Shown here: positions 5,265-40,381 of the stretch, piece by piece
Position numbering within the stretch: position 1 is the stretch's first letter
How the letters are laid out: every line of letters begins with the position of its first letter
Source: Phorcus lineatus
Taxonomy: Eukaryota > Mollusca > Gastropoda > Trochida > Trochidae
Length of the DNA stretch: 64,000 nt
NCBI GenBank assembly: GCA_921293015.1
Contig: OV121096.1
Location: forward strand, 13,209,000 to 13,272,999
Reading direction: 5' to 3'
The notes under the pieces: generated by a model
Told to the model about the DNA's origin: nothing
Seen by the model: only the letters and a program-made list of their open reading frames with translations
The model's database searches: none
Made by a program: the position numbers and the translations under genes

Positions 5265-5299
<35 letters not shown>

Positions 5300-5306
5300 T
5301 GGTGTT

Positions 5307-5341
<35 letters not shown>

Positions 5342-5600
5342 GGGTGTAGGTTGAGGTGTAGGTGTAGGTGTAGGTGTTGGTGTAGGTGTAGGTGTAGGTG
5401 TAGGTGTTGGTGTAGGTGTAGGTGTAGGTGTCGGCGTCGGCGTGGGCGTGGGCGTGGGCGTGGGCGTGGGCGTGGGCGTTGGCGTTGGCGTTGGCGTTGG
5501 CGTAGGTGTAGGTGTAGGTGTCGGTGTCGGTGTCGGTGTAGGTGTTGGTGTTGGTGTCGGTGTAGGTGTTGGTGTTGGTGTAGGTGTTGGTGTTGGTGTT

Positions 5601-5635
<35 letters not shown>

Positions 5636-17305: not shown

Positions 17306-19183
17306 TTATCCAGTAAAGACTTTATGTGAATATTCAACCACATACTCAGGATAAGTCTGTGAAATGTCAAAAGTTACAAAGATGTTTGGGTTGACTGGGT
17401 TGTTGACAACAGAGTTGAACGGTCGCTGTTTAGGGTCATCAGGGTCAACAGGAGGTCGTCGCATCCCATGGTTCCCTCGCGTGTACCGTCCACACACCAC
17501 TCGGGCCACCAACAGTAGGTTGCTTTGCTGGGACACATTCTGTGTCACGTGAGGATGGCCAGGGAACTTCTGGCTGTACCAGATGGGCACACCTTGATGG
17601 TTGAATCCAAAGGGATGGTGATGTGGTCGCTTTGGGTTGAACTGGAATCCAGAGTGGACACTGCTGTACTTGTGAGAGTATATGGCGTCAGTTGCAAAGT
17701 ACGAACCTAAAGGAAGAGAAACATACTGTTCTTTAAATATTTCATGACTAAATTGTAGAAAACATAAACAAATATTATATCAGTGTTTCCTAAATACATC
17801 AAGAACAAGTAAATGCTGTACAATAGATTTTGGTATCAAATAAGGAGACAAAAACAAACAGATAAAATTAAAACATTATAAAAGCTGGTCAAGTCCAATT
17901 AAGGATATCCAAATGAACTGGTGTCTGGGTACCCCTCCATTGAAGTCTGATACCAAACTTGAAGACTCTGGATGCAACGGCTCACAAGATGTCATGCTAA
18001 CAACATTTTTTTTCAAAGTAAAAATCTCACAGTGACCTTGGAAATAAGATCAAGGTCACCAAAATCAACTGATGTCTGCGTATTCCCATTATGAAGACTG
18101 GTACAAAATTTGAAGACTCTAGGTGCAGCAGTTCAAGGAAAAAGATAATAAGTCAAATTAGATAATAAGAAAAATTTAACCATATGCCTTTTGCATCTTA
18201 AAACAAGACAAAAACTTTCATAAGGGTGTGGTCCATGTGGACCTTTTTAGGGGTAATAGGGTCACAAGAGCTTTGCATTATAATCCCAAAGGGGTCTATA
18301 CATCAGATTTCAACTTTCTAGGCCTTTTAGTTCTAAAGAAGAAAATGAGACTTTTTTTGGCTTTGGTCATGAGGCCCATTAGAGGCAACAGGGTCATCAA
18401 ATCTAAAAATTTTGATTGCATTTCATTTTTTATTAAGAAATCCAATGAATTCTACTGACCTTGTCCATAGGCAGTTCCATGCTGACCACAGAGTCTCCAG
18501 TCAAACCCCTCGCGACAGATGCTCTCCACCACATCTGGCTTTGTGCCATGAAACAGGTGCTTCTCATTGAGCTTTGCAGCTCCTGTCTCTTCCAGAATGT
18601 GGGAGCGTGTCCTGAAAGAATGTTGTCAGTAAGGATGTGGTAAGCTTTAGCTTTGCTTGTTAGGAATTGTTATTATCTGTGATCTTAAACAGGAAGCTAA
18701 AGAAAACAAAACGATCATGTATGATTAATAGGTGTTGAGTTCCACGATATACATAAACCGAGATCTCTAAAACTGAAAGCTATCAAGTTTAAGGCTGATT
18801 GATTGACCAAACTGTTAAAATGCAAAGAGAATTATTTTAGTGGTTGTATTTTGCTTTCTAAATGTGCTATAGACATGATATTGGGCTGAGAACAGTTTAA
18901 GACCAATATTGGTGTAACCTAGTAGTGCCTTTAACCAACTACATCTCTTACATGACCATGCCATGAGGCTTTTGTACCTTAAAACTCATTGTCATACATT
19001 TTGTAGATTCAAACAAAGAAATGAAGACAGGCTGAGTACATACAGGGCATATTTCTGCCAGAGTTTGGGGTTCTGTATGCGAGTGAGGGTTGTGATGCTG
19101 TACTCTCGCATGGACCTCCTGAACAGGTCCTGGATAACTTCAAACTCCATTGATTCAGGCGCAACCACAACTTTCATAAAGTC
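17306..19183 (-). CDS. PARP catalytic domain exons 12-14
   Basis: Exons 19044-19183, 18460-18611 and 17306-17706 encode residues 986-1215. The start reads VAPESMEFEVIQDLF, and TRIQNPKLWQKYAL is the usual PARP lead-in. The NAD-binding signature follows: KHLFHGTK (His1053), then CGQHGTAYGQGSYFATDA (Tyr1085), and near the C-terminus PNIFVTFDISQTYPEYVVEY. The position equal to PARP1 Glu988 is Ile1191, so the triad is H-Y-I, which in this family means mono- rather than poly-ADP-ribosylation. It is closest by eye to PARP12/PARP11. A His/Pro-rich insert (about 1100-1145, with RPHHHPFGF) lies between core strands. The stop is TAA at 17308-17306. Donors are GTATGT and GTCAGT. Confidence 0.9.
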
Positions 19184-22100
19184 CTGTGTTCATGAAAAGA
19201 GAAACATAGTTTATCACCATTTGTAAAATAAACAATGTGTTTTGAATCGATTTGGAATGTCAAAATGAATTTGAACAAACCTGCAGAGGTTTCACATATT
19301 TTTTTAAGAGCATCCTCCTTGGGATAATATTGCATAAAACAGGTTGTGACAAATTTTGAATAAAAAACATAAAAAAGCACATAAAATGTTTTTCTCATAA
19401 CACCCTAACAGAGCCCCAAACCCAAGCGGTTGCCATGGCACTATGGGAAGGAAACTCAATTCTCACAACTTATCGATCTAGTATTAGCAGATGGAAGAGA
19501 ACTGGAGAGAAGAGAAGTTCTGGAGAGAACTGACTTGCCAAACCTTGCACGCTCACTTGAGCAATTGTCGAGTAAGTAGTGCCTAATGAACGTGCTAGGA
19601 CCCAGCCTCAGCCTTAGAGGTCGCTACCGCCCTAACCGAATGAGCTTTCAACCCTTATGGGGGCTGTATGGACATAGCCCAGACATATCGCCAAAACAAT
19701 CCATATGGAGATTGTTTGCTTTGATGCTGGTAGGCCGGACTTGGTCGTGCCATAACAACAGAACAGTTGCTTATCCTTTCAAATTTCTTTTGTTCTTTTG
19801 ATTTAACATTTGAGGGTGCGACTCACATCAAGGATGTGGGACTGCATCGACCTCGCTCCCTGAGCTGCCGGTTTTGACATTGCCGGTAATTCAAGCGGAG
19901 CTGATACATGGAAAGAATGGTCCACCTTCGGGCAGTATGAGTCAGGCAGTCTAATGCTGACTCTCTAGTGAAAGACAGTCAGCTCGGGATCGGAAGACAT
20001 CGCATGGATATCTTGTACCAGCCTACCTGATATAACCGCCACCAAGAAGGTAGTCTTCCACATGAATAACTGCAGTGAGATTGTGAGAGCGATGTCATGA
20101 GGACCACAGCTGTGGAGGCTGACTTCGTATCTGCGACAGAACCCTGGAAATCAGGGGCATGGGCCGAAATGCCCACAGCACCCTGCCAATCCAGTCTATC
20201 GCGAGAGTTTGGGTCTGGTTTTCTGGATCAGGACACCGGTGTCTGATTCGTCACTCCGGACGCAAACAGATCCACCTAAACTGACCCGTACAACTGGGAG
20301 ATAAGCCCAAATAGTTGAAGGAAGCGGTCGAAGACATTCCTCACTGCCCACAGATCCAGCACATTGATGTGCTTCCTGGATTCGTCCAGGGACCACAGGC
20401 TCGAAGCTGAGTGGGCCCCTAGGACTCCCCCTCAACCTTAAAGGGAAGTGTCCGTCTGAACTGTGACCGTCGGCAGCGGAGTCACCAGAGGCAGACCGCT
20501 TGACAGGTTGCTTTCCACCAGCCACCATTCCAGAAGAGTGTTAAGCCACTCAGGAATGGCCAAGAATTTCTCCAGACTCTCGGATTGAGACCATAGCTCT
20601 GCCAAAGCCTGTTGGACTGGTCTCATTCTCAAACAAGCCCTCCAAACCACATCCACTGTCGCCACCATATTCCCAAGTCCACACCTTCTCCGGGGAGGAT
20701 GGCACCGGAGTTTGCCTCACTCCGGTAAAAGAAGGTGGCCGAAGCTTCCAGAGAGGCAAATGCCTGTCCCTGAGCATGGACAGGACCAAGGGGTTCGACT
20801 TGACTCTCTCCCATTCCGGCAAGAACTGGGTAAGTCTTCCTCTCATTGGAAGCTCTGGCAAGAGGCAACGGATTCCTGTAACAGGCGGCACTCCGGCCCC
20901 CTGGCAGTACTCCAGCTTGGGTAGATGCGATTAGGAGCCCTCCCCTGAAAAGGCTGTTGCCGGCCCCTGGCCTGCTTGCCCTTTCACCTTTCTTCCCTGC
21001 ATACCTCCCCTGCCTCCCCCACATTGGAGCTGAGTGTTCCACCAAGAGAAGGCTTTGGATGGCGGCTCCGATGGGAGGCTTTTTCAGGGGTGACTTGCGC
21101 TTCCAAGCAGAACCAGGGCCGCCTTGGCCCTATCAAGCCGTTCGGGAAAGTCCTTGATGACTGTTGAGATCCCAAGAACATGGTTTGACCCAGTTCATAC
21201 GGGCAGTGCATTCTGGGTCGGCTGTGGGAGTGATGACCAACTCAACCACAGCCTCTGAAGCCCCATCATTGTGGTCATCACCTGGCTCGACGCACTCCGG
21301 ATGGAGTCGCGAGCCAGGTAACTCGTAACCTTGGACAATTGCCCTTGGAGCAGAACCTGATCGGTCTGCTCCTTCTCTTCAGACATGCCTTGAGCATGCA
21401 AAGAGGCCAGGAATGCCGAATGTACCACGACCCCCAAATGTTGGAACGTATTCGGGTACGTGGCCGGAGCAGAACGGGACCAAGGTCAACACATCGTCGT
21501 CAATCACCAGTACCTCAAACAATCCCACCTCCCCTCTAAGGTACCCAACAGGAGAGGCGAGATCACATCAGGACGGAGACTGTCAATGATGCAGAGCCGC
21601 GTCTTTAAGACCTTGCACTTAGCAGAGGCTCCACCAGGAAGACAGCTCCTTCTTGGGAACAACGACTGGCAGGAAGGCAGCCGTGAACTTGTCACAGACC
21701 CCCCCCAAGGCCTCAGAAATCGGGAGGTCGGTAGGATCCAGCTACGAATCCCCGCCGACCTCCATCTCCTCTTCCTAGCAATGCCCCGTCATCTCCGAGT
21801 CCAGAACGGACAAAATTTCTGACAAATTACCCGGAAGAACAGACAGAGGAAGTAAGGGGCTCGTTGATCTCCTGTCGTTCCCTAGAAGGAGCTGGGAGCT
21901 ATGGTCCAGACGGGGACCCCGACGCAGGAGCGCCATGAGGCCCTTCATTTGCTCCTTAATCAGAGAATTAATGGTGTCAATAGAGGGGGTGATGGGGTGG
22001 GCCCTAAAAGAAGACAGCTGGTCCCCCCACCTCCGAATCCAAGCTCTCCTCAGATTGGGGGGGGGGGGGGGGGGACGACTGCCTTCTTCTTACCAATACT

Positions 22101-25100
22101 TTTCTTGGAAGGGGGGTCACACCCTTCAAATCCTCACCCGCCTCGTGCATTCCCCTGTAGAATAAGGTATCTGTCTGCCTCCTCTTTTTTGTCTTCTGGC
22201 AGAAAGCCGCGCAGATGGAGCAGTCTGAGTCTGGGTGACACTGTATCACTAAACAGGGCAAGCAGCTTGGGTGTATCAGTATGTGGGATGGAAGCACCAG
22301 TCAGCACACTTCTTGAAAGGCTGTAAGCCAAACATAAAAGAATAGTTGAGCTGCTAACCTTAAGGGGCCATGTTTGTCTTTTTTCCCCGCGGAAGGCAGA
22401 GAATGTGGTTCCAACAGCTTGGAAAAAACCTAAGTCACAACGCGATGGAATGCAAGAAATGCAAGAAAACCTATTCTAAACTAAGTTTAGTAATCAAAGT
22501 TACCATACATTTGACTCTTTCTCCATTTTCCTGTTTTTCTTATAACAGTCAGAGACTTAGCAAACTTTACAAAGTCTAAATCACGTCATTCTTCTTCAAT
22601 GACAGATTGATAAACGTTGAGAATAGAATTACCTGCCCTTGGTGCCATGGCAACCACTAGGAAATGGGTCCCTGTTAGGTTGGTGATATATGAAAAACAT
22701 GTTTTATGTGTCTTTTTACATATTTTCTTTTGTGCAACAACAAAAGACAGTAGGCATGAATAGATATATAATATGGATTTAAAACATGTTTGGGAATATA
22801 CATATGAAAATAAATATTTGGGGGCTGGTTCGGATTAAAATGTTGATGAAGCAGGGCATAGTGAAGTTACTGGGTTGTAAAAAACCTGATGGAGGTGTGA
22901 TATTGGCATGTGCCTTGGGGGACAAAAGATATTTGTACAGAATAGCTGAGGTTCGGATTTAAATGTTGATGAAGCAGGGCATAGTGGAGTTTATACTGGG
23001 TTGTAAAAAACCTGATGGAGGTGTGATATTGGCATGTGCCTTGGGGGACAAAAGATATTTGTACAGAAAAGCTGAATGCCCAAAACGAGGTGTAAAATAC
23101 CGAGAGCCCCCAAGGTACTGAAAGAAAACCTGTATGGTGGTGTTGATTGATTTATTACAGTATTTAGTTTTTACAGGAAGAAGAGGAACAGGTTGGAGTG
23201 GAATCTGTTTAGAGGATATACGGGAAGAGAAGCAAAATGATAATCAAAATAAAGGGGTTTATATAGCTGACAACATGAGATTAACATGTAAAGCAATTGC
23301 AGTTAACAACATCAAATGTACTCAAATACAAAAATGCAAAAGTAATTAAATGGCTAAACGCACATGGAGATTTGAGCTTGTCTCAAGACAACTTCTGGAG
23401 TACGAATGTATCTGTTAAAACAGTCTGACTGCCATCTGCCAAGAGTTTTGATCAAGTGATCTTCGAGACGAGCTTTTGCTGCAGAGGTTGCCGCCCCAAT
23501 CCTGAAAGAGTGGCCTGAGTAGAGAGCTGAGTTCAAACCGATTTGTTTCAAAACTACACTTAGATCCCTTAGGAACATTGCCATGCTGTAGGCCGTGTTG
23601 CCTGCTTTCACGAACAAGGGATCCGACAGGGTCGCTCCACACATGAATCGAGCACGTAGAAGGTTATGCATGCACTTCACAGGACACAGTTCTTTGTTGG
23701 TGCAAAACAAGGATACATCCACTCCATGACGAAAGGGATCTGCTTTAGATGCTTTTAGGGTTAATGTGCATCTACCCCTCGGTATGTCCACAGACACATC
23801 ACTCAAACATAGGTTTACTGCAGGATTAAACACAGGACCACAGGTGATTTCTCCGCACCTTAAGAAACCAAAGAAGGCCACCACACACATACACTCTAAA
23901 ACAAGATATTCAAAATATAGTCACAACCTGTCATATAGCAAAAATAAACAGATTTTATGCAATAGTACCCCAAGGAAGATTCCTTCTGAATAAAGAATGT
24001 CACAAGGTTCATAATTATGACCTTATCTGACAGGTCTTCTCAAGACGACTGCACGTTTCACATATCCTCCACAATCAAAAGTCTCTGTCAAAATTTCGGG
24101 AAGCTGTTCCAGTGATAAAATTAAGGTTATGAGGTAAAACCTCATGACTTTATCTGAAACATCTAAATAAAAGGAATTCCACAAGCAAGTATCAAAGGCT
24201 TATCACTCATAGATAAAATAGAGCTCATCGTTATTTCACCATTTATGTTTTTAGGTTGTAGATTTGCAAACAAAAATATCATGTACATAATGTGCATGGT
24301 GTTTGTACAAAACATACAAACACATAGATGCTTTCAAATCATTCAGTTCATTAAAGAATAAACGAAAACATTTGAAATCATTTCAAACCTACATACTTCT
24401 TCCACTCCCCTACTGACCCAACCTCTCCGTACGAGGCTAATTCAACTCACCATCCTTCAATAGACATAATTATACGACGAGAGAATACATGCATACTGGT
24501 AGGGGTCAGCTGGGACAAAGTTCACCTGCACAGGATGTAGTTCTAACAAAGTGAACAGATCAGTCCCATAGTTACAAATTAGGATCTGCTAGGTCCCCAC
24601 AACCATGCCAAACAGAAGTTGAACAGGGGGTCCTTTCAGATCTGATGAATTAAAAATGGCCTAGGTTAAAGTTTGGCTAGTTGTCACTTGTCTAACAAGA
24701 AAAGCCTTTAAAAAGGCAAACTTGGCGGGCACAAGAGCAGAAATATTGGATTGGAGAGGAGGAGTATATTAGCAACGGTATATTGAAACATAGCTATATG
24801 AAGCTATGCTTTCAGTTTTATAATTCGACATTAAAGTGATAAATAATTCAGAAATTGTATTATTTATGTATCGATTATGCCTACGACATTGTGTGTATTA
24901 TCGAGTTTCTAAGATGAAGCCAGATGCTACTCTGTTTAAACTGCAACCGCAGTTATGGCAATTGTAATCATGGTTGTCATGTTCAATGCTGAAAACTGCG
25001 AAACTGCAAGGTTTCTAGGAGTAAATTGTGTAATGAATAGATAAGTTTTAAACTGTGTGTTTATATTAGCTTGTGGAATTTCGAATCACAATCGGCTCAC

Positions 25101-28100
25101 TAGAAGAAAAAAATGCATCCTTTCAATAATTTCTTGTTGGCAAGTGAATATTTTCAAATAAAACAATTTATGAATTTAAATAATTCTTTCTATATAATTT
25201 GAATAAATTTTTTGCAAGTATTTTCAATTATGTTTGTATATAAATCCCTTAGAAAATTAAAAGCTGTAGTTTGAAAAGTTGATTTTCTTATAGATTTTAA
25301 CATATGTAGTTGAAACGTCAAACCTTTTAGCAAAGAAAATCATATGGCTTTAAATATAAAAAATATTTTCTAAATTTTATCATGATACTGTTTTAAATTC
25401 ATATTTGTTATGAATGATAATTTTAATTGCAACCGACAAGTTTAAAACCAAATATTGGGAAAAAAACAATTGCAAATGATCTTTAAGCAAAAGTAGAATT
25501 ATTTCGTGAATTTCAAAGTTATTCAAGAAAAAATATATAGGACAAGTGAGATACAAATGCAATGGCCGTCTTTCATCTTTGAAGAATGCGTGGTCTCCCA
25601 TTCGATATCTAGGCACAAAGTTGCTTTGATGAATCGTGGCTGATAGTGATACTAAGGATACAACATTTTGACGAGATGTTAAAGTGATTTCAACCAAAAC
25701 TAGTAAACCAAAATCAATTTCACATCTTTTGCGTTTGATATCGAGTGAGTGAGTTAATGTTTACCGCCACTTGGGCAATATTTTAGCCATTAGCGGCGAC
25801 GTTTGATACCGAAGAGAGAGAGAGACGGGAGGCGAGGAGAGACGGGAGGCGAGGAGAGGTGGAGGCATGTTCAGTAGCGTCAATTACGGGCCTCCATTAT
25901 GAGCCCAGGATAGCACGCACAGTGATAGAAGAGAGAGTGTAACTCGTGCGCTAAGAGCTCACATTACTGAACATGTCTATTTGACGATTGTTGGAAAACT
26001 GTCAGCTGTTTGTTGAAAAAGCGTGGGTTGTTACAAAAAAAGAATGATGACTCCAATTCTTGAATGCCAAAAATTGGACCAAACTTGAAAAAATGTAGCC
26101 TCTTATTTGTGTGACATTATTTACAAACGAGTATTTACACTTTAATTGACATATATGAAAGAAAATATTATTCTTTTCCTCAATCTGACATTTGTAGGGA
26201 AATCAAATTCCACATTAAAGCATGCCAAATATTTTATGGTACCCACAAGGTCACATGGTTAATTCTTTGCTACATCTCTTTTCATTGGTCATTGGATACG
26301 CTGTGATACAAATAAAACACCTAGCATTGGCTAAAACTTCTCTTTGAAATTTCCAACTGTATTATAGAGCGAAATATCTGCAATAAGTGACATTTATCAA
26401 ATGTATAATTACTTGTCGGCTATGGCCGCCAAGCAATAAGGAAGGCTCATCAATGATAAATCAAAACTTATGGCCAAGGTTTAAGTTAATGGACAAACAG
26501 TCAGAGAGAAAAATAGATTATGTACCCTTGGAATCTTTGATTTTGGGCCATAAAAAACATATCACTATGTGAAACATGACATGCTAGGTATATTCCTTCT
26601 TGATATAACAAAAGAAGAGAGTCTGACCTCTGTGGACACCGAGGGTGAGGGGTCCCAGTGGGAAGGGGCTATAGTGGCATTCTCCAGGGTCGGCACGCTC
26701 AGCAAGGGGGAGCAGTAACTGTGTGACCCCTCATTCCATGGTCGCTTGCAGTATCGACAACATGCCTGCCAAACAGTTTTCAAATTACAGTCTCATATAA
26801 GTATCTTTCTTCACAATTTGCTCATAAGTATTAGTTCAATTACTGTTAAGGTATTCATTAAACAATTTAACTTATAGCAAAGTTTCACCTTGAATATATG
26901 ATGATTGTAACAGTAAAATAAATCTTGAGTAGAGCAAATTAAACATTTTATGATATTGCATGATTCTGTTTTCAAGGCACGTACCAGCATGCAGTCAGTG
27001 TTTGGACAGTGGAACTGTTTGTCAAAGATACCCATCATCACGCTCATTCCACAGTCTGGACAGCTGAAACATATAGGTACATGGTCAGGGTGCAAGGTAT
27101 TATCAATATATAAATCCGTATACTGCAATGTTGAAGAACATGATATGTACTGGTACAAACTGAAAATATCATATATAAGGGACATCTCAAAATTACCTAT
27201 TTCCATTCAATATTGCAGTAAAACAACCAAATAAAACGTGAAGTTGTGAAGTAAAATTAGTTCAAATGTGTTCAAACTCATAGCCAGTCATTGAAAATTC
27301 TCACTTTCCAAAAAGATGGACAGCTGAGAATTGATTGCTCTTCTGCTATCTATTCAAGAGAACACCCTAAATTTAAATTTGAAAACTACCAATATATCGC
27401 AAGAATACCCATCCTTATTACATGGACATAAGCACACAGGTTGATAAAAAAGCATAATAGAGCATTGGGACATTGACATCATCAACAATAAGTTTGTCCA
27501 TGACAAATAATGATGCAACCACTTACTTTACATAACATTGACAAACATTTCATTAAAAACACCATTTGATGGGATATCACAGTCTTTATCTTGTATTGCG
27601 TGCAATCAATAGCTCCTGAATAGTTTTCCTCCAGATGGCAAGGAAACATTACCTCAAGACAAAACAATTTCAAAGCCCTTGATTTGAGGGCAGTGACAAA
27701 TTAATCAAATGAAGTTGAAAGATTGCAATATTTGTACGGCTACATTTCTAATGCTTCAGTAATGAAGGTGTGAGCCAACCTGACGATGCCCGACATCTTG
27801 CTGATGGAAGACCTCTCCTGCTTGTCTATTCGCTCCTGGAGAAGGTCCACAACAAACTGGGGCAGAACCTTCTTGGCATCCACTGAAACAAATCATACAC
27901 AGGATTCAGTATCTTAGGGTCACTACAAAATGGGACAGAACCTTCTTAGCATTCACTGCCAAAGACCGTCATCACCAGCATTAGATATATATGAGGTACA
28001 CAACAAACTGGGGTAGAACTTTTTTTGTACCCGCTATAACACATCATAGACAAGATCAGGATTCAATCTCTGAGGTACTCCCAAAAGCTAATTTATTTGA

Positions 28101-31100
28101 GTAGAGACAACAACTTTGGTTAAAAGATAGCTTTTTATGATGACTTTGTAAAGTGACCTATTTTCAGTGTTTCTGAACAGTTGAATTTAACTCTACTCAA
28201 TGATTTATGTTAAACCTGACATAATGATTTAACACACTCACCTAATCGGATCTCATTCTTGCACTCTCCAACTAAACATATAATGGTGATCTGAAGTCAG
28301 AAGGTCAATATAGTTTAGGATCCACTGATCTACACACAAAGTTGTCATCAGAGATTAAGACAAACGAATAAATAAAGTTGCCAAAGGCTCAAGATATCAG
28401 AGTTTCAGAATATTACATCATGGCAAAACAATGCTTTTCAAATGACAATGAACTGAGTAAATGTCATCAAAATGAGCATGAGACTCGTTAATAAAAGCTT
28501 TTATTTAAAAAAGACAGCAATATCACAATAAAATAAAACTTGCACAATAATAAGCTAAGTCAGTTATGGCTTATAAATCAGTTCTCATAGACTGATTTTT
28601 GTTTAAAAGTTTTTGACATCGTTGATGCCCATAAGACAAAAACAAATCTTCTTATGATGTTGAAGTGTTCAACCTACCTTTGAGTCTTGGGCAAGGACCT
28701 GCTTAACACACTTCTCTATACAGGAGCGGCAAAGCACATGCCCCTCAGAGCACTGAGACAGACTTCCTGTGTCTGCCAGCATACTGCACCCCTCACACTG
28801 CATCTGCAACATGAAGTCTGCAACACAAACAGGTCAAAGATAAGACAAGGTACATTAGTCAACCTTCAATACCTTGAGCATCAATGTTTCCACAGCACTG
28901 CAAGATTAAACAAGTGGAGAAGGGAAGTTCAAAATAGGAAAAAGACACACTGATGTGAATTAATTAACAGCAAAATCTAGTATACACTGTTTAAGGGGCA
29001 TCTTGTACTTTTGTCAACTTTACAAATTATTGTACCTTAAGTTTGAGAGATATAGTCCAGACAAAATGTTTTTTGTCTTATAGTCACTGTATTAGACATG
29101 TTTCAATGGACCTAAAAAAATCTAACTTCTCTTAAAATCTTACTTTTCAAAAACACATCCAGAGATTATAGTTGACATATTTATCAAGCTGCTCTAGTCA
29201 TGTATCCATGGGAACCCCTAAAGAGAAAATTTATTTGTAGGTCTTACCCTCAAAATGCATACCTAGAGATCATGGTTGACCTATCTATGAAGTTTGGTGA
29301 AGCTAGCATGTTTAGTTTAGGAGAAATGCTCGAGACAAATTATTTCATCAGAGACGCTGTATCAAACATGTTTCTAAAGAAACCGCAAAACTAACATTAA
29401 TTTGTAGTTCTAACCCTCAAAGGGCACATCTAGGGATCATGACTCATATGTGTATGAAGTTTGGTGAACCTAGCCTGTATAGTTTAGGAGAAATGCTAAG
29501 GACAAAGTTCTGGGACTGAGGGACAGACGAATGGACAGGCGTACAGACAGATGAGGAGAATGAACACTATACCTCCACCTTACACTGACTTCTATCACAA
29601 AGCACTGATTTAAATAAAAGTGAGGAAAATGTTAAATTTTATCTGATAATGCTAACCCTGAGTACCTAAAGATGTAGTGTCATGACTTCTAATTCTGTAC
29701 TGTACAAGGCCTTGGCAAAAAAAACTTATTCCTTATTATTTAATAATTATGGTGAAAAGCAGAGTAGGTTTGTATTGCAGTATTTTTGTATTGCAATTTA
29801 TTGTGTTACACTTATTTCCATTGCAAAACCAAATGCCCATATATTATTGCCCCTACATAAAAGAATACATCATAAGTTAATTTTCTATCTTGGAGTACCT
29901 GTATGTGAACACAGGATAATAGTTCACAAAGTGTAGAAGAGAAAAAACTAGTTTGTCTGAAAGTGTATCTATGTAACAGTTGATAAACTCTAAATGGTTA
30001 CATGCCCTAAACTCTTAAGGAGGCTTTACTCAAGACACTGCTTCACAACTTACCTTGAGGTTCAGGGACCAGGGGTTGAATCTCTTTCTTTGACTCATGC
30101 TTCTGATTTAGGTCTGGGATGTCCGGCAGATAGTCAACTTCATCCTCCATTACCTACACCGACACATGCTACATACAATCACACTCCAACAGTTCCAAAC
30201 TATAACTCATCACTCTAAATACAAAGACAATGATGAATTGTTTGACAGAATTACAGAAAGTCTGATGGTTATGCTGTTTTGTGTTAATGGGAATATAAAT
30301 GAATATACAGTCAGACCTCTATAATCCGAACACTTCCGTTTTTCATCAAAAACGTTCGGATAGTGAAACGTTCGGACTACTGAAACGAACCATATCTACA
30401 GACAGACGACAACGTAGCACGAATATCTAATGAGTTTTATTTCATATACACATAACAACTGGGATACATATATTAATAAACAATCATTGCACAAAAGCAT
30501 TTCTGGACACTCACTCAGGTTTGAAGAATTTACCGATTACAGATTGTGTACTCAATCTTTAGAAATATTTAACCATTTATCTTTACTACGCCAAATGTCC
30601 GAAATTGTGCTCTTGCCGATAGAATGTCCAAATTCCTGTCCAAAATGTTTGCTTATGAAATCAAAACTGGCTTTTACATTTTCCTGCTTAAATCTACAAA
30701 TTTCTCTTTTTTGTGCGGCAGTAATTTCGAATTGTTTACGCTTAGGGGCGGGACTTGCCATCGTGACAAGTGTTAACTGCAACTGACCTCATTCTGACAC
30801 GATATTTATAACTATCACACAAATCACAAACTCCAGATACACAAAGTGAGACATCTCAATTTATTACAATCACAAACTGCTGAATGAACTCCCGTGTCAA
30901 TCCACTGTCATTGATGTTTACCGATTCAATCAGTGTGGTGCTCGCTTGACTAGTGGATTACCGAACGCTTTGATGAACAGTCAGATTAATGAAGCAGAAA
31001 TAGCTGTAATTAACTAATTCGTTACAGCTAATTAGCGTTTGGATACGGAGACTGAATCAACGGATTAATGAATCAACATTTAATGAGTTTATATAAAGAT

Positions 31101-34100
31101 TAGTTTGGTTACAGTTTGCTACCGTTCGGATACTGCAAGATTCGGTTTATCGGTGGTCGGATTATCGGGGTCTGACTGTAGATGGTTCTTGGTGACAGGA
31201 GTTCACCACTTCTTATTCATGGGTACAAAGACAACAGTCACAGTTGAGTCATTAGCATTGGATAATCAACTGGAAATCATTGACGTTACAGGCAACTGGG
31301 GTAAAATCTTTAATGAGAATATAAATGGTGTTCCCCATCAATCACTTGTCTACGTAGTCAATGTAGCCAGTAATGCATCTTCCAGTCTGATTAAAATCAA
31401 CCATGTTCCGAAGAATAAAAGCTTCAAAATATTGACTCTACCGAGATTCGAACTCTATACGGCTATCTTCTCCACTAGGTCTGACCGCAGCCTACTGTAG
31501 CGCACGTGCTGACACCAGTTTAGCGCATACAAAACCTAGTCATTAGCGAACCAATCGCATCATCGCGTTTAAAATAAGGATAGCAGCAGTCAATGTTAAC
31601 GAATGGTGAATGAGAGTTACTTGCCCCTAGCTACTGATACCGAATGCTTTTGCCGCACGCATTGTGATTGGTTAGTTGTGTTTACGTAAGAACGTGCGCT
31701 ACAGTAGGCTGCGGTCAGACCTAGTGGAGAAGAAAGCCTACACATATAGAGTTCGAATCTCGGTAGAGTCAATATTTTGAAACTTTTATTCTTCGGAACA
31801 TGGTCGATTTTAATCAGACTGTGCATCTTCCAGTTCGCATTTCACTAGCTCTCAATCTCAAAGTATTTCCACTATCAAAGAGGTTTGTTCCCCGCAGGAG
31901 TTATCAGGAGTACTCTAGACTAACTACAGTCCAAGTTCCTTCTGTTCTATATTTCAATGTCAGTCACAGATAATGACAATTCATCAATAATATTAGCGAT
32001 CCTCACCATTGTTTCAACACTTTAAGAACTTACTGGCACTTTGTTTGGCACATCAGAGACATCCATAGAATCCTCACTAGGGCGTTTCCGCCCCTGATGT
32101 CGGATCTCGTAAGCCTCTTCCCCAATTGCAGACAACACATCAACAAAGCGCTGGGAAGTCTTTATCTTGTCAATACTTCCCTTCACGTTGACAGACTTGT
32201 GTTTCCCCTTCCCTCTTCCTAGACTGCTCAGTTCTTCAGTACTCTGCTTCTCATACCCAGTTTCAGCCATCAGTAAGCACATCTGATTGAGGAAGTCCAG
32301 CGGACGCTCAGTCTTCAGCTTCTGCAGTCGGGTCCTTGCCCAGCTCCTTTCCACATCGGGGAAAATGGTAACCTGAGAATTCCAACAGTTAAATAACAAC
32401 AAATTAATCATATCTGAATATTGTGTTGAACCTATTGTTATTTGCATTTCAAAATGTTGTTGCAATATTGCTTCAATCATTCAAAGAAGATTATTCATTC
32501 ATTATTTTCACAAGATGATAATTTATATTGCTATTCCTGTTGAAATCTCACACTACTTAATTCACTAGGACAACAACAAGTAAAAAGTGAGCACAGCTCA
32601 CATACCCCTGCTTCATACTATAGTCTGGCTTTTTTTGTTGGTCTAACCTTCAAAAGGCTCATCTAGGGATCATGGTTGATAAATGTATTAAGTTGGGTGA
32701 AGATAGCATGTATAGTTTAGAAGATATACTCCAGACAAAGGACTTTGTCACTGTTTTAATCATGTTTCAATAGAAACCATAAAAAATAAAAATCATTTGT
32801 TGATCTAACCCTCAAAAGGCACATCTAGAGATCATGGATGATAAGTGTATGTAGTTTGGTGAAGATAGTATGTATAGTTTAGGAGAAATGCTCCAGACAA
32901 AGGACTTGGTCATAGAGTCACTGTTTTAGTTATGTTTCCATGGAAACCGCAAAATGATTGGCTAGTTGAGATTGCATCTGAACGTGCGAGCAAGGAGGGT
33001 GCTTTCAGACTGTTGTGGAGAGGACAGTCCCTGATATAGTACGTTTGAATCCCGATAGAGTTAACATTAGAAAAGTTTTATTCCTCGTAACATGGTCGAT
33101 TCTAATCAGACTGTAAATATTAATAACCACAAATAAGTTACGGATTGTTTTAAATGAATGAAATGAAAAATGTACAAAGAAGAGTTATCACTGACAGTTA
33201 AAAAGGTTATTTATATTGGATTATACATATGTAAACATTCATTCCTGTAAATGTTACATTAAAGGGACGTAACTTTGTCTTTAAATCTAATCAGATAATT
33301 GGTATTTTTCAACATCATATATTTTTTTAGTTATCTTCACAACTGACAAAACACATGTTTTGAAGTAAGTCAATGTTCTTAGAAAACTGTAATGGTGCAT
33401 TTGTAACAAAATTTCTTGAAGTGTTATATAAACATAATACCCTGACGGGTCAAGTTATTTCCATGTTACGGATAACATGTTGCAAGCAGCCAATTATATC
33501 TTATCATAAGATTAGTGTAAGAGATGATCCTTACAGTAAAATATTTTTTATAGAAGATGTTTGCATAGAACACATTCCAAAACAAATGGCAACACAACCA
33601 AAACAACCTTTCAATGTTGATACAACATCTTGGTTTCAAGAATGAACTGATGTCTAAATGACATCAGATTACAAAGTTGCCGTAAATTTCAAATCCAATC
33701 ATTATTCAACGTTATTACAACGTCGATAAATGACATTGTTTCAACGTTGATACATGAAATTGCCTGCTGGGATTTGGCTAGTGAAAATTAAGCAAAATGT
33801 TATGACACTGATACCAATATACCACTGACCAATACTTACAATTTGCTGCAGGTCTGACTCAACATGAGGAAGCGGTGTACTCGACACAGGCAGAGCAGGT
33901 CTGGGGCCCTGTCTTGAGTTCCCTTGTGTATCAACTGCAGCTTTCAGTGATGTTTTCCCAAGTCCATCAGCAGACCTTGGGGTCAATCCTACCTGACCAG
34001 ATGTCAAGGAAATGTCTCTGTCGTGAAGAGCTGGTGGAGGAACATCACTTAAACTTTGTATCCATTTTCTAGTTGCATCTAATTGTGATGACTTGCTGAG

Positions 34101-37100
34101 GTTGTCCAGTTTAGCTGTGTCTGTGACACAAAGACTTCTTCCTGAATCTGTTACATGTAACTTTTTCTTCTTGGTTATATCCTTCACGTCATCATTGTAG
34201 GCAAATAAATGTTGAAATGAATTACTTGATTTTTCTCTCAATCTTCTAAGCTGCTCGTTGAGTTGGTTATTATCTATTCTTGTATGTTTCCGTTTTTTCA
34301 AAATGCCTTTACTCAAAGGTTTTACACTGTTTACTTCATCAATGACAGATGTACTTGTAGAAACATCCAAACTCTGCACAGGTCTTGCATCATAAGAGAC
34401 GCAGCAAGGAGTAGTGTCTGACGCTGCAGCAGAGCCCTCGCTATCACTGGAAGTTCCTTCCTTCAACAACACTGATTTATGTGACATTAAAGATACACTT
34501 TTACTTTTATTCCTAGACTGCTTTTTAACTGATTGTAAATAAGGTACCTCATGAGGTAATAATAAATCTTTTTTTGGCACATTGGGAAAAACTTTTTGCT
34601 TGCTGACATGAATAGTCACCTTATTCTTCAGATTACCTGGAGAATCAATGAAAGACACAGTCTTGTTGGATTGTAAGGAGGAGTCACTTTTTTTCTCTGA
34701 AACTGAACAAGACACATCACCAGAATGGTTCAGATCAAGATGGTCATGTGATTGGCTTACAGTTGCTCCCGGGGACAAAATTATGTGTAAGGAAGGGACT
34801 CTACGTGTGGGCGACTCTAGCTTGACAATGTCTGACACGTCTATCAAACTCTTACCCTTAACACAAGAGACCATGGTTCCCTGAATATCATTAACATCTT
34901 CAGGAGAAGCAGAATCAGTGAAGTCAGAGTCCCTTCCAGTGTCCTTCAGTGAAGTGTCTGTGATGTTGATAACATCTCCATCATCATAGTCTCCTTTAAG
35001 GGGTGTATCAGATATATGGATGATATCGTCAGACGTATCTGCCCCCTCCGAGCTAGATCCCTGTGTGTTCATTCCATGATCTGAACCAGTCTCCTCCTTA
35101 TCCTTAGAGGAATCTGACAAACAGTCATTGGTGTCGAGAGAAGCCCTCAAAGTGGCAGTGTCAGAGTCGCAAACTTCTATAACGCTCCCAGAACAAGGCA
35201 CAATGGTTTCCCTATGAGGTAGCTCTTTGGACAAACTCTTGTCTTTTGACTGTAGATCAGAAGGTTCTTGTTTACTGTCTGAAAGAGATACCTCTGAATT
35301 GGGTGACATGTCCGCTGTTGATTCAAGGGATATAACTTCAAAGTCAGAGTCAGAACAGTCTTCAGGGTCAAAGTAATATTGCTTCTCTGTGGATGTGTCC
35401 GACTTGCCTTCACAGTCCTCCTCTCCTCCTTCACAATAGACATTCAATATCATCATGTGATTCAACGTTACGCATGCATAAAATAGGATCATTATTACTA
35501 ATCTAATTACATTCTTTGTTGCAACTAGTCACCAAAATTAACATTAACTACAAAATCTGTAGTGCCAAAAAAAAGGTCACATTTGGCCGGTTCATGAATC
35601 CCAATATAAATGCTAAAAATGAGAAACTGCTCTGTAGTTCATCAGCCTTTGTATTGTTGATGTTAAGACTGAAATACAAACCTGTTTGTTCTACAGATGA
35701 AATACAACACTAAAATTGTCAAGTGTCTGTTCATTAAAAAAGAAGTCTCAACAGCAAATTGGATGAAAATTAATAAATGCATATCATATTCTTTAAAATG
35801 AAGTCCATAATGTACAAATTCAGATAACCTAGGTGCAAGGTATATCAATTTCAGCTTAGGTGGTGTTGGAGGAGAAGTAAAAAATATGAAAAGTTTACAG
35901 ATACCTTTAAGATCTGATTAGATAAAAACGAGAGCATGGGGGCTGACATATATCTGACTGTACAAAAACATTCTCCAGTTTTAACAGGGAAAAGGAGTAG
36001 AATTAAATTTCAGTATCCATGCAAAAAAACCAAGATTTTTCTTGCCAAATAACTTCACTAAAAATACCTACGACTTTCACCTTTTTGCTCCTTCTTCTCA
36101 CAAGTGTTGAGCCACTCATTCATTCGTTCTCGCTTCCCTCCATCCTCCAGTTTGTGTCTCTCCTCATCCCAGTTGTCAATGGAAAGTTTTGATAATCCGA
36201 AGGAGCTAGAACTCTTGGGAGACTGAGAGACATCCACAAGACTTTCTGTGTTTGAGGCGTCACTAAGACAGACTTCTGGCGGCCCTGCAACACATGCATA
36301 CACCTCTTTATCAACACATGGATAGGTTTGCTTATTATATCTATTAAAAGATATCCACTATTCAAAACTAAAGGGGTAACAAATTTGAAATTTTGAGGTT
36401 TAAATTACCAAATTTTACTTTTGACTTGCCAAAAATATCACAATAACATTATTTTCTTGCCACCTTTATAGTCCAGTCCTTCAGCCAGGTCCAGAAAATT
36501 AGGGTTTGACTAAAAATTCGGTACAAAATACCACAATGATTTTTAGATGGTCTAGTCACCCTTGTATATGAACTCATGTGATGGACATCTGACAAGTCCA
36601 GCTAAGTGCCTTTTTAGCGGCCATTTACGATTACAGATTATCAAGATGTGAAGTAAATTACTGTTTTCTTTCAAACCAGTGTTAGTGTTCACTATCAAAT
36701 TTCCCTTATTTTGACACATCATTTGTTTGGTTTTATCATATTTCAACTAATAATTTAAAAATTGTGGAACATCAAAAAATTTGTATTTTTTACGAAAATG
36801 GCAATTTCTTCCCGTTGACATTAATGTACAGACACTAAAGAAAGGTAACACATTTTTTGGAAAGTTTTACAAGCATGAAACATAGACATGATTATCAAAT
36901 ATCAAGAAAAGAGTTTATTTGATTTTATAATTCAATTTAAAGGCATGTCTGTCGGATTCTGGAGAAGACGAAAATATGTTTTTAGATAGGCACCAAACCT
37001 ATAAATTAGAATCACCACAGGGTTACCAAATCTATAAATCAAAAACCTGATTAGTCAAGGAGTCCGTACACAAGATTTCAGGTTACCTGAGTCAATGGTT

Positions 37101-40100: not shown

Positions 40101-40381
40101 TCAATCATCAAAACTTACATGAACTCATAATTAATCACTACAAAGTAACTGACAGGTTCTTATGATGCTATATTATAAAAAGTGTGTAAGAACAACAGTA
40201 TTTCACAAGCAATGTTAAACAGACCTCCTTCTAGAACTTGCTCCACACACTTTGAGACCAGCTCCTCGATTTTGGTGTAGTAAACAAAGTTGGCATTCAG
40301 GATGCTCTGCAACAGACCTTCTTCTTTCTTCGGGAAAATATTCTTCAGAATTTTTACCACCTTGACCGTCTGCTCAGCCAT
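17306..40381 (-). CDS. RING1-IBR (TRIAD3/RNF216-type) fused to PARP ADP-ribosyltransferase, 14 exons
   Basis: Exons on the minus strand: 40225-40381, 38363-38410, 36072-36284, 33840-35428, 32034-32372, 30054-30153, 28678-28817, 28242-28290, 27780-27882, 26985-27063, 26628-26765, 19044-19183, 18460-18611, 17306-17706. They total 3648 bases, and the phase matches at all 13 junctions (1215 residues plus stop). In order: an N-terminal helical FP-containing segment (1-52); an acidic disordered region with SUMO-interaction-like motifs (140-343) and a basic patch KKRKHTR; an IFPDVE-containing helical segment (670-782); RING1 (823-872); IBR (914-957); and a PARP catalytic domain (986-1215). The RING1 and IBR spacings match RNF216 as I recall it. 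RING2, the catalytic domain of RBR ligases, is not found. Predicted role: ubiquitin/ADP-ribose crosstalk, probably nuclear or stress-related. The joining of the two halves across a 7.4-kb intron is the least certain step. Confidence 0.75.
17880..18460. repeat. Dispersed repeats in a PARP intron
   Basis: Two related blocks, about 17915-17995 and 18060-18140, share AACTGGTGTCTG/AACTGATGTCTG, AAACTTGAAGACTCT/AAATTTGAAGACTCT and a GCAACGG/GCAGCAG end. A third block (18225-18450), with GGGGTAATAGGGTCACAAGAG and CATCAGATTTCAACTTTCTAGG, recalls the 145-bp family in SPT2 intron 5. All are noncoding. Confidence 0.55.
19340..22745 (-). mobile_element. Deleted DIRS-like retrotransposon with inverted terminal repeats
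   Basis: The ends are imperfect inverted repeats of roughly 110 bases. The left end has CACATAAAATGTTTTTCTC, CCTAACAGAGCCCC and GGTTGCCATGGCAC; the right end read backwards has the same landmarks (CACATAAAACATGTTTTTC, CCTAACAGGGACCC, GGTTGCCATGGCAC). The GC-rich interior reads on the minus strand as a decayed DIRS-type order. A gag-like Cys motif (PCLVIQCHPDSDCSICAAFC) lies near 22.26 kb. The start of an RT region (WERVKSNPLVLSMLRDRHLP) lies near 20.8 kb. RNase H pieces (EWWLVESNLSSGLPL; then VLDLWAVRNVFDRFLQLFG in another frame) lie at 20.55-20.30 kb. The RT core is missing and frames are broken, so it is inactive. It sits in the 7.4-kb intron between the IBR and PARP exons. Confidence 0.7.
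22828..23072. repeat. Tandem duplication, two ~122-bp units
   Basis: Two adjacent copies share GTTGATGAAGCAGGGCATAG, CTGGGTTGTAAAAAACCTGA, GGAGGTGTGATATTGGCATG and GGGGGACAAAAGATATTTG with few differences. It lies just beyond the DIRS-like element and before the tyrosine-recombinase fragment, and may be terminal sequence of the latter element. Confidence 0.85.
23354..23890 (-). mobile_element. Tyrosine recombinase fragment (DIRS/Crypton-type)
   Basis: A 178-codon minus-strand frame encodes the C-terminal catalytic part of a tyrosine recombinase. The first Arg is in FFGFLRCGEIT, HxxR is in GHSFRIGAATS, and the final Tyr is in FNRYIRTPE. All key residues are present, but the N-terminal domain is absent, so it is a fragment. 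It lies on the wrong side of the DIRS-like element (a DIRS recombinase should follow RNase H), so it is probably a separate insertion in the same intron. Confidence 0.85.
23900..26627 (-). other. Rest of the intron between IBR and PARP exons
   Basis: I looked here for a RING2-like exon (a Cys-rich segment following the IBR) and saw none. A minus-strand stretch near 24500 reads VNFVPADPYQYACILSS before a stop; it lacks a useful splice phase and looks like repeat-derived sequence. The part from 24800 to 25740 is very AT-rich. Confidence 0.5.
25741..25870. repeat. Dispersed repeat head plus GA-rich microsatellite
   Basis: GAGTGAGTGAGTTAATGTTTACCGCCACTTGGGCAATATT is followed closely by GAGAGAGAGACGGGAGGCGAGGAGA repeats. 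The head resembles the TTTAACGCCGC repeat at 13090. Confidence 0.6.
26628..27882 (-). CDS. RING1-IBR linker and IBR exons 9-11
   Basis: Exons 27780-27882, 26985-27063 and 26628-26765. Exon 9 encodes the linker helix VDAKKVLPQFVVDLLQERID. Exons 10 and 11 encode the IBR: CPDC (914-917), 14 residues, HCPNTDC (931-937), CCRYC (941-945), then KRPWNEGSHSYC (His954, Cys957). The spacing C-x2-C-x14-C-x4-C-x4-C-x2-C and the W-x-E before the last His/Cys are those of the RNF216 IBR. The tail after Cys957 is Ser/Pro-rich, ends STE and joins in phase 0 to the PARP exon. Donors are GTTGGC (poor), GTACGT and GTCAGA (modest). The poor donors are the weak points. Confidence 0.8.
28242..28817 (-). CDS. RING1 exons 7-8
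   Basis: Exon 7 (28678-28817, acceptor TGTGTTGCAG, donor GTAGGT) encodes MQCEGCSMLADTGSLSQCSE followed by GHVLCRSCIEKC. Exon 8 (28242-28290, acceptor CTGACTTCAG, donor GTGAGT) encodes ITIICLVGECKNEIRL. Together they give zinc ligands C823, C826, C838, H842, C845, C848, C867 and C872, with the C-x3-H-x2-C-x2-C and C-x4-C spacings of RNF216 RING1. Exon 8 is only 49 bases, but it supplies both the last Cys pair and the phase shift (0 to 1) that exon 9 requires. RING1 normally recruits the E2-ubiquitin conjugate. Confidence 0.85.
29190..29560. repeat. Dispersed repeat, tandem partial copies
   Basis: The landmarks TAGAGATCATGGTTGACC, ATGAAGTTTGGTGAA, TAGTTTAGGAGAAATGCT and GAAACCGCAAAA occur twice here and twice more at 32640-32960. 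This is a noncoding interspersed family in introns of the PARP-fusion gene. Confidence 0.7.
30308..31178 (-). mobile_element. Pogo/Tigger-like DNA transposon, deleted, TA target duplication
   Basis: The left end CAGTCAGACCTCTATAATCC and the right end GGATTATCGGGGTCTGACTG are inverted repeats flanked by TA on both sides, the pogo/Tc1 hallmark. At 871 bases it is too short for a full transposase. The interior carries TTCGGATA-type copies of the ends. It sits in an intron of the PARP-fusion gene. Confidence 0.85.
30552..30761 (-). pseudogene. Pogo transposase N-terminal fragment (CENP-B/psq-type HTH)
   Basis: The minus-strand frame from the ATG at 30761 encodes MASPAPKRKQFEITAAQKRE, then ICRFKQENVKASFDFISKHF and GKSTISDIWRSKDKWLNI. 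This is the helix-turn-helix DNA-binding start of CENP-B/jerky/pogo transposases. It stops after about 69 residues. The second HTH and the DDE catalytic domain are absent. Confidence 0.75.
31384..31826. repeat. Large inverted repeat with B-box-like motif in each arm
   Basis: The arm at about 31384-31510 and the arm at about 31698-31826 are near-perfect reverse complements. Shared landmarks are GATTAAAATCAACCATGTTC, AGATTCGAACTC and CTAGGTCTGACCGCAGCCTA. The spacer is about 190 bases. AGTTCGAATCTCGG resembles a tRNA B box, so each arm may be a SINE. A diverged single copy lies at about 32990-33120. A transcript could fold into a long hairpin. Confidence 0.75.
32034..32372 (-). CDS. PARP-fusion gene exon 5, CUE-like helical segment
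   Basis: 339 bases, phase 0-0, acceptor GGAATTCTCAG, donor GTAAGT. It encodes VTIFPDVERSWARTRLQKLK followed by ERPLDFLNQMCLLMAETGYE, resembling the FP-motif helical repeats (CUE/UBA-like) that precede the RBR in RNF216. The following part is Lys/Arg-rich (GRGKGKHKS, RHQGRKRPSE), possibly a nuclear localisation signal. A similar IFPKKEEGLLQSILNANF segment opens the protein in exon 1. Ubiquitin binding is inference. Confidence 0.75.
33840..35428 (-). CDS. PARP-fusion gene exon 4, acidic region with SUMO-interaction-like motifs
   Basis: 1589 bases encode residues 140-669, with no predicted fold. Hydrophobic tetrads beside acidic residues, the SIM pattern, are SDSDFEVISLES (171-174), GSVIEVCDSD (222-225), SDDIIHISD (275-278), DGDVINITD (292-295), and KSLIDVSDIVKLES (334-337, 340-343). 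Further on is a basic cluster, GILKKRKHTR. The donor is GTAAGT; the acceptor is purine-rich (TCTATTGTGAAG). An alternative upstream ATG exists in the same frame, but the upstream exons join cleanly. Confidence 0.8.
36072..36284 (-). CDS. PARP-fusion gene exon 3
   Basis: 213 bases, phase 1-1, acceptor GTGTTGCAG, donor GTAGGT. It encodes GPPEVCLSDASNTESLVDVS, then a Ser-rich run and a charged helix (DNWDEERHKLEDGGKRERMN). No recognised domain. Acceptable as an exon because the phases agree with exons 2 and 4. Confidence 0.7.
37060..37205 (-). repeat. Dispersed repeat, copy 2
   Basis: Same landmark order as 1320-1600: GTCAAGGAGTCC, GAAAAAGTGAAAAGCTTACA, GACAGATGGACACCAGACA, TATAAGCCCATCGGGCCTTT, GATGAGCTA. 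It lies in intron 2 of the PARP-fusion gene. Confidence 0.75.
38443..39919. mobile_element. Foldback-type DNA element, ~1.48 kb, long inverted arms, 6-bp target duplication
   Basis: The ends are CAGGCCCCCCTGAGTAATTG and its reverse complement. Arms of about 515 bases (38443-38960 and 39385-39919) pair almost throughout and flank a roughly 425-base single-copy core. AATTAT directly flanks both ends (38437-38442, 39920-39925), a clean 6-bp target-site duplication. Each arm contains a small exon-like unit: an ATG reading MATNLQPPVS followed by GTGAGTG, a consensus donor. The element sits in intron 1 of the PARP-fusion gene, only 32 bases from the exon 2 acceptor. Confidence 0.85.

Follow-up and report, generated by a model that had tools for sequence, protein, structure and literature searches.

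What defines an RBR ligase is its RING2 domain, onto which ubiquitin is transferred. The stretch of Phorcus lineatus DNA analyzed here (the window, 64,000 nt) carries on its minus strand sequence resembling the RING1-IBR part of such a ligase and, further along the same strand, sequence resembling a PARP catalytic domain. The question raised by this locus is whether the two belong to one gene, in which a PARP domain stands in the place of RING2, and what the product of such a gene might do.

Exons 5-12 (28817-17306) were located first, by means of RING/IBR and PARP motifs in the translated frames, and they join without a stop. Exons 1-4 were placed by phase, open frame and composition, with no support from homology, and their borders may be off. 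The resulting model is one open minus-strand frame from 40381 to 17306, which consists of 12 GT-AG exons encoding 1083 residues (Table 1), and all 11 exon junctions are phase-matched. The original prediction was of 14 exons and 1215 residues; its continuous, phase-matched minus-strand frame was recovered but its counts were not, and its outer coordinates (17306-40381) and the junction of the two parts (26628/19183) proved to be exact. In all 11 exon-intron pairs the exon has a higher GC content than the intron after it. Splice sites were scored with a small leave-one-out matrix built from the gene's own sites, and by this score exon 4 has a strong donor (0.1% of GTs score equally well) and a weak acceptor (40.1% of AGs). 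At the 3' side, neither AATAAA nor ATTAAA was found on the minus strand from the stop codon to 16500, and the 3' end of the gene is therefore unsupported, which counts against the one-gene explanation. Within 16500-40400, minus-strand poly(A) signals are spread throughout the introns; past exon 9 the first is at 26146, and another (18434) closely follows exon 11.

Table 1. Exons of the gene model and the intron between its IBR and PARP parts (positions in the window)
Feature	Position	Strand	Content
Exon 1	40225..40381	-	Start codon; phase 0 to 1; MAEQTVKVVKILKNIFPKKEEGLL..., helical
Exon 2	36081..36284	-	Acidic/Ser-rich; phases 1 to 1
Exon 3	33840..35428	-	Long, acidic/Ser-rich, probably disordered; SIM-like stretches
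Exon 4	30054..30153	-	Short linker
Exon 5	28678..28817	-	RING1 ligands 1-6; aligned to RNF216 RING1
Exon 6	28242..28290	-	RING1 ligands 7-8 (CLVGEC; RNF216 CMEGSC)
Exon 7	27780..27882	-	RING1-IBR helix; KVLPQ identical to RNF216
Exon 8	26985..27063	-	IBR first half (CPDC...CPNTDC)
Exon 9	26628..26765	-	IBR second half (CCRYC...HSYC), then 18-residue linker to Trp of PARP-start-like stretch APSHWDPSPSVSTE
Intron 9	19184..26627	-	7444 bases, GC 0.429
Exon 10	19044..19183	-	PARP catalytic domain start (DFMKVVVAPES...NPKLWQKY)
Exon 11	18460..18611	-	PARP His (LFHGT) and GQHGTAYGQG
Exon 12	17306..17706	-	PARP Tyr (GSYFA), 45-residue insertion, IFVTF (presumably Ile of H-Y-I), stop codon

The 169 residues encoded by exons 5-9 were compared with PDB chains. 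Two RNF216 sequences were the best matches (E 1.1e-15, over query residues 6-145 of 169, and 1.2e-15), and up to E 1 the list contained nothing further except parkin (E 0.44). In this comparison RNF216 is the closest among the RBR proteins of known structure, the match being to human RNF216, and the IBR half plus tail alone still matched it (E 1.7e-4). The alignment bears out the predicted eight RING1 zinc ligands, all eight positions being present (QCEGC, SQC, GH, LC, SC, IC, EC). Zinc loop II retains its C-x4-C, and the RING1-IBR helix begins with KVLPQ, as in RNF216. A full IBR with RNF216 spacing had been claimed as well; its seven Cys are in place, but the His ligand is shifted two residues further on in the ungapped alignment (KEHNGLTC in RNF216, NEGSHSYC here). 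At positions at or beside the E2 contact, C517 of RNF216 corresponds to Gly and Y519 to Ser; this placement is our own mapping, made from the descriptions "equivalent of HOIL-1 V284" and "adjacent Y519".

As for the region ahead of RING1, exon 1 gave by eye the impression of a CUE domain, which was supported neither by Pfam nor by the PDB comparison. SIM-like stretches in exon 3 are EVISLE, VIEVCDSD, IIHISD, VINITD and LIDVSD, and model residues 53-682 contain seven such stretches. Since 310 of 2000 shuffles reached this count, it is not above chance, and SUMO-interacting motifs are not claimed. A long region ahead of the RBR part is common to this model and RNF216; the human protein is drawn with SIM, TIM and CUE elements before the RBR in one paper (PMC13153464).

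The 399-residue RING1-IBR-PARP product was likewise compared with PDB chains, and 48 distinct sequences matched up to E 0.01. PARP12 was the best (E 5.3e-42, in two stretches), followed by the weaker PARP15 (1.1e-29), PARP14 (8.4e-27), ZC3HAV1 (1.4e-20) and PARP10 (about 1e-18), with tankyrases weaker still. Pfam PF00644 was also matched on this part (E 9.5e-22), and the PARP domain predicted at 19183-17306 is confirmed by these values. On the same spliced product the outcome for the RBR part was different: Pfam gave only RING-type matches below its cut-offs, so that it cannot settle RING1, IBR or RING2 here, and NCBIfam gave no match to that part. LFHGT, GSYFA and IFVTF align to PARP12 as the H-Y-I triad, as in mono-ADP-ribosyltransferases, and we take the Ile of IFVTF to be the third triad position. 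The domain also contains a 45-residue insertion (SVHSGF...NVSQ, GC 0.526), absent from the original prediction, which separates SYFATDAIYSHKYS from QSNLLLVARVV. No WWE or macrodomain was found in the model by Pfam, nor in the interval 19184-26627 by Pfam, whose sensitivity at the exon level is low, and an ad hoc pattern; no CCCH zinc finger was found alongside the PARP domain.

These features bear on the idea that the locus yields no working protein, being either a decaying gene with a fusion transcript or an assembly join. Such an origin would suit the large repeats that surround the gene and the diverged copies of the exon 7 start just upstream of exon 7. We nevertheless judge it very unlikely, because the 1083 codons contain no stop or frameshift (although openness was a condition in building the model), all 11 exon-intron pairs have the higher GC in the exon, and the PARP motifs are kept.

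The link between the two parts was examined at the junction of exons 9 and 10. Intron 9 has a fair donor behind VSTE, with 3.5% of GTs scoring equally well, and a poor acceptor before DFMK (56.5% of AGs). Upstream of DFMK the exon 10 frame reads Q, T and then a stop, three codons before GAC, and the sole AG between this stop and the aligned Phe is the acceptor used for exon 10. Unless exon 10 is translated from the ATG that it contains, it must therefore be joined in phase 0 to another exon, and exon 9 fits this requirement. The PARP15 alignment extends across the junction to exon 9, where LPEHWTDMN is paired with APSHWDPSPSVST; for the PARP12 and PARP14 chains the alignment begins only at about exon 10. 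Many clade 3 PARPs have Trp at the PARP-start position. When the exon 9 tail was used with the 26628 donor, the alignment gain was 10 against a shuffle mean of 1.2, and this gain was reached in 135 of 5000 shuffles. The minus strand between 19184 and 40400 has 683 open tails that end at a GT; four of them scored above 10 (15, 15, 14 and 13), and one unrelated tail tied at 10; the tail scoring 14 is exon 9 itself cut 12 bases earlier, and the other three higher scorers are unrelated. Because these scores are only modestly above chance, the PARP-like stretch of exon 9 is a supporting clue and not proof. If exon 9 is read on unspliced, a stop is met after 20 residues and no RING2 is encoded. The matching phase, the constrained acceptor and the sharing of exon 9 by both parts lead us to infer a single gene with a single mRNA.

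The same junction can also be explained by two neighbors on the same strand: an RNF216-like gene that ends after exon 9 or has unseen RING2 exons, and a PARP gene that has its first exons in the 7.4-kb interval or starts at the exon 10 ATG. We consider this arrangement unlikely. It is in keeping with the weak acceptor of exon 10 and with an interval that is long and rich in mobile-element-like sequence; against it stand the phase match, the constraint on the acceptor and the resemblance of part of exon 9 to the start of the PARP15 domain, and both genes would need to be incomplete at complementary points.

The screens for a RING2 or a WWE also bear on this arrangement, each within the limits of its sensitivity. 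No RING2 with a catalytic cysteine follows the IBR in the 1083-residue model. A tblastn search of the 64,000-nt window with the RNF216 helix-RING2 gave no match better than E 1.5, and that one lies outside the gene. With RNF216 the first IBR exon was recovered only at E 0.15 and neither RING1 exon was listed up to E 20; tblastn is therefore a weak screen for RING2 here. Three RING2 patterns had no minus-strand match in the window, the relaxed pattern occurring once on the plus strand at 24933, and none of the 13 C-x2-C contexts that intron 9 contains on the minus strand (three frames) looked like RING2 when read by eye. Pfam on these three frames, with X at stops, gave no RING2 or WWE exon above the cut-off; by the same treatment one of the three PARP exons and none of the RBR exons came above it. 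An ad hoc pattern found no WWE-like stretch in the minus frames of intron 9. That WWE-like and RING2-like stretches were unseen by our self-made patterns argues against two genes, and that small single exons are hard to detect by Pfam and tblastn argues for them, since a RING2 split over small diverged exons could escape. One Cys-rich minus frame inside the interval, 22264-22199, also speaks for two genes; as a RING2 it was rejected, being without the GC-x2-M core and sitting in a GC-rich, element-like stretch. A loose IBR pattern also matched this frame. A DNA ligase zinc-finger match in intron 9 (Pfam, E 0.033) was below the cut-off and was taken as chance. What the sequence itself establishes is that both homologies are present, in this order, on one strand and in one frame, with the catalytic motifs aligned, and the predicted succession of an RNF216-type RING1-IBR and a PARP domain, with no RING2 detected, is upheld at this level by the RNF216 and PARP12 matches and the RING2 screens.

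Intron 9 has further contents of its own. It contains mobile-element-like sequence and a GC-rich stretch at 20-22 kb, and inverted arms of 79 bases (19401-19479 and 22604-22682, 76% complementary) enclose 3.1 kb that is largely GC-rich, in the manner of mobile-element ends. A 188-codon open frame on the minus strand at 23354-23920 looks by eye like a tyrosine recombinase of the DIRS/Crypton type; Pfam on 23357-23920 gave nothing.

The possible action of the protein can be considered from known structures as follows. In RNF216 and HOIL-1, E2 is held by RING1, the donor ubiquitin is held by the IBR-RING2 helix and RING2, and the RING1-IBR helix and the IBR form an allosteric ubiquitin site, which mutation could not validate in RNF216 (PMC9834252). 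In the present model the segments of the allosteric site are kept, the RING1 fold is kept with changed E2 contacts, and the donor-ubiquitin site is absent, the IBR-RING2 helix (the donor-ubiquitin helix) being missing. This combination leads to the likeliest reading, that the product may be a mono-ADP-ribosyltransferase steered by a ubiquitin-reading RING1-IBR and not an RBR ligase. The retained RING1-IBR helix and IBR would act as a ubiquitin reader, the reader would bring the transferase to ubiquitin-marked proteins, and E2 docking would be weak or lost. The transferase would be a mono-ADP-ribosyltransferase, to judge from its catalytic motifs. Because no RING2 cysteine is present, RBR transthiolation would be impossible, and ligase action by the RBR route would be excluded if the gene model is right. 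To the whole explanation, in which one gene encodes an RNF216-derived protein that has lost all that follows the IBR, both the IBR-RING2 helix and the catalytic RING2, and has in their place a PARP12-like catalytic domain guided by the RING1-IBR, we give close to an even chance.

The changed E2 contacts deserve separate consideration. In RNF216, mutation of Y519 reduces E2-ubiquitin discharge, and C517A has no effect (PMC9834252). With Y519 replaced by Ser and the donor-ubiquitin helix missing, the handling of E2-ubiquitin may be weakened, and both points count against an E2-coupled transferase, in which RING1 would dock E2~ubiquitin, with the PARP domain in the place of RING2 ADP-ribosylating the ubiquitin C-terminus or E2, or priming ADP-ribose for ubiquitination like the Deltex partners. 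The case against E2 docking is made weaker by the harmlessness of C517A, the change nearest to the Gly found here. In addition, RING1 keeps its eight ligand positions and zinc loop II its C-x4-C, RING2 of RNF216 is where the E2-ubiquitin bond is presented (PMC9834252), and ADP-ribose on the ubiquitin C-terminus was reported for PARP9/DTX3L, although it was later reassigned away from PARP9 (PMC12687431). On balance we regard this transferase as unlikely. We regard as quite unlikely its fuller form, in which the RBR frame would still dock E2~ubiquitin, together with an allosteric ubiquitin, while ubiquitin or E2 would be ADP-ribosylated by the PARP domain sitting where RING2 was, so that one chain would write a hybrid ubiquitin/ADP-ribose mark.

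Comparing the ubiquitin-guided transferase, our preferred reading, with known systems, its likeness to RNF216/TRIAD3 lies in RING1, the RING1-IBR helix and the IBR (E 1.1e-15); the differences are that no IBR-RING2 helix, RING2 or catalytic cysteine was found, that C517/Y519 are G/S, that the IBR His is shifted by two and that a PARP domain is added. With PARP12-like clade 3 mono-ADP-ribosyltransferases it shares the catalytic domain and the H-Y-I motifs (PARP12 5.3e-42, PARP15 1.1e-29), but here RING1-IBR stands in front, no WWE, CCCH zinc finger or macrodomain was found, and the 45-residue insertion is present. Dictyostelium DDB0232928, discussed with clade 3 in one survey (PMC2964712), also combines a PARP domain with a RING-like domain that binds E2, but the latter is an N-terminal U-box accompanied by a macrodomain, and the passages on this protein do not mention an RBR part. 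Ubiquitin machinery is also joined to PARP in the UBCc-PARP fusions of fungi, moss and a green alga, which are PARP6/8 homologues, but these, as described in PMC4245714, have an E2 fold, belong to another PARP clade and carry no ligase module. In DTX3L/PARP9 a ubiquitin ligase and a PARP cooperate as well, but as two proteins with a Deltex ligase, and PARP9 itself is reported not to ADP-ribosylate ubiquitin (PMC12687431).

Fusions of a ubiquitin-related domain with PARP are thus already known from two surveys of PARPs, and the general idea is not new (PMC2964712, PMC4245714). IBR does not occur in the main texts of the two surveys, and PARP does not occur in a 2012 RBR review. A literature search for a RING1-IBR-PARP architecture or for IBR-PARP naming found none, its scope lying outside most subscription journals and bioRxiv preprints, and within the literature searched the RING1-IBR-PARP module is new as far as the searches go. 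Pattern searches for RING1-IBR-PARP loci gave nine matches in viral contigs and 38 in prokaryote genomes, none of them confirmed, and no match in phages; these collections are uninformative for an animal gene. Unannotated relatives may well exist in sequence databases. If transcripts confirm one molecule, two protein-tagging systems would be linked in it. If our reading is true, the RING1-IBR unit would be reusable as a targeting module whose catalytic end has been swapped for an ADP-ribosyltransferase, and the protein would offer a one-chain system in which to test ubiquitin/ADP-ribose cross-talk.

Several observations were made on the sequence in and around the gene. Three copies of the exon 7 start, acceptor included, lie at 27843-27905, 27916-27978 and 27994-28056, spaced by 73 and 78 bases; the upstream two show 70 and 79% identity and seem decayed. 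Intron 1 contains, at 38442-39920, nested inverted repeats of 261, 194, 46 and 41 bases that are 96-98% complementary. A 78-codon helix-turn-helix frame lies at 30555-30788 on the minus strand; it matched HTH_ABP1_N just above the cut-off (E 7.2e-5) and CENP-B_N below it (E 0.055), and is like the N-terminus of a CENP-B/Tigger-type transposase. Reverse-transcriptase fragments (PF00078), of the non-LTR type by impression only, were found at 187-1316 on the minus strand and at 61128-61658 on the plus strand. On the plus strand, 48550-50610 is a charged frame of 687 codons to which Pfam assigned no family and which, we presume, resembles SPT2/SPTY2D1. It is followed at 50909-51623 by an array of a 52-base repeat, the unit of which translates as FIRQIFGYDKRK. 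Finally, 4635-7184 is a long GGTGTN-type tandem array, both strands of which are open for hundreds of codons.
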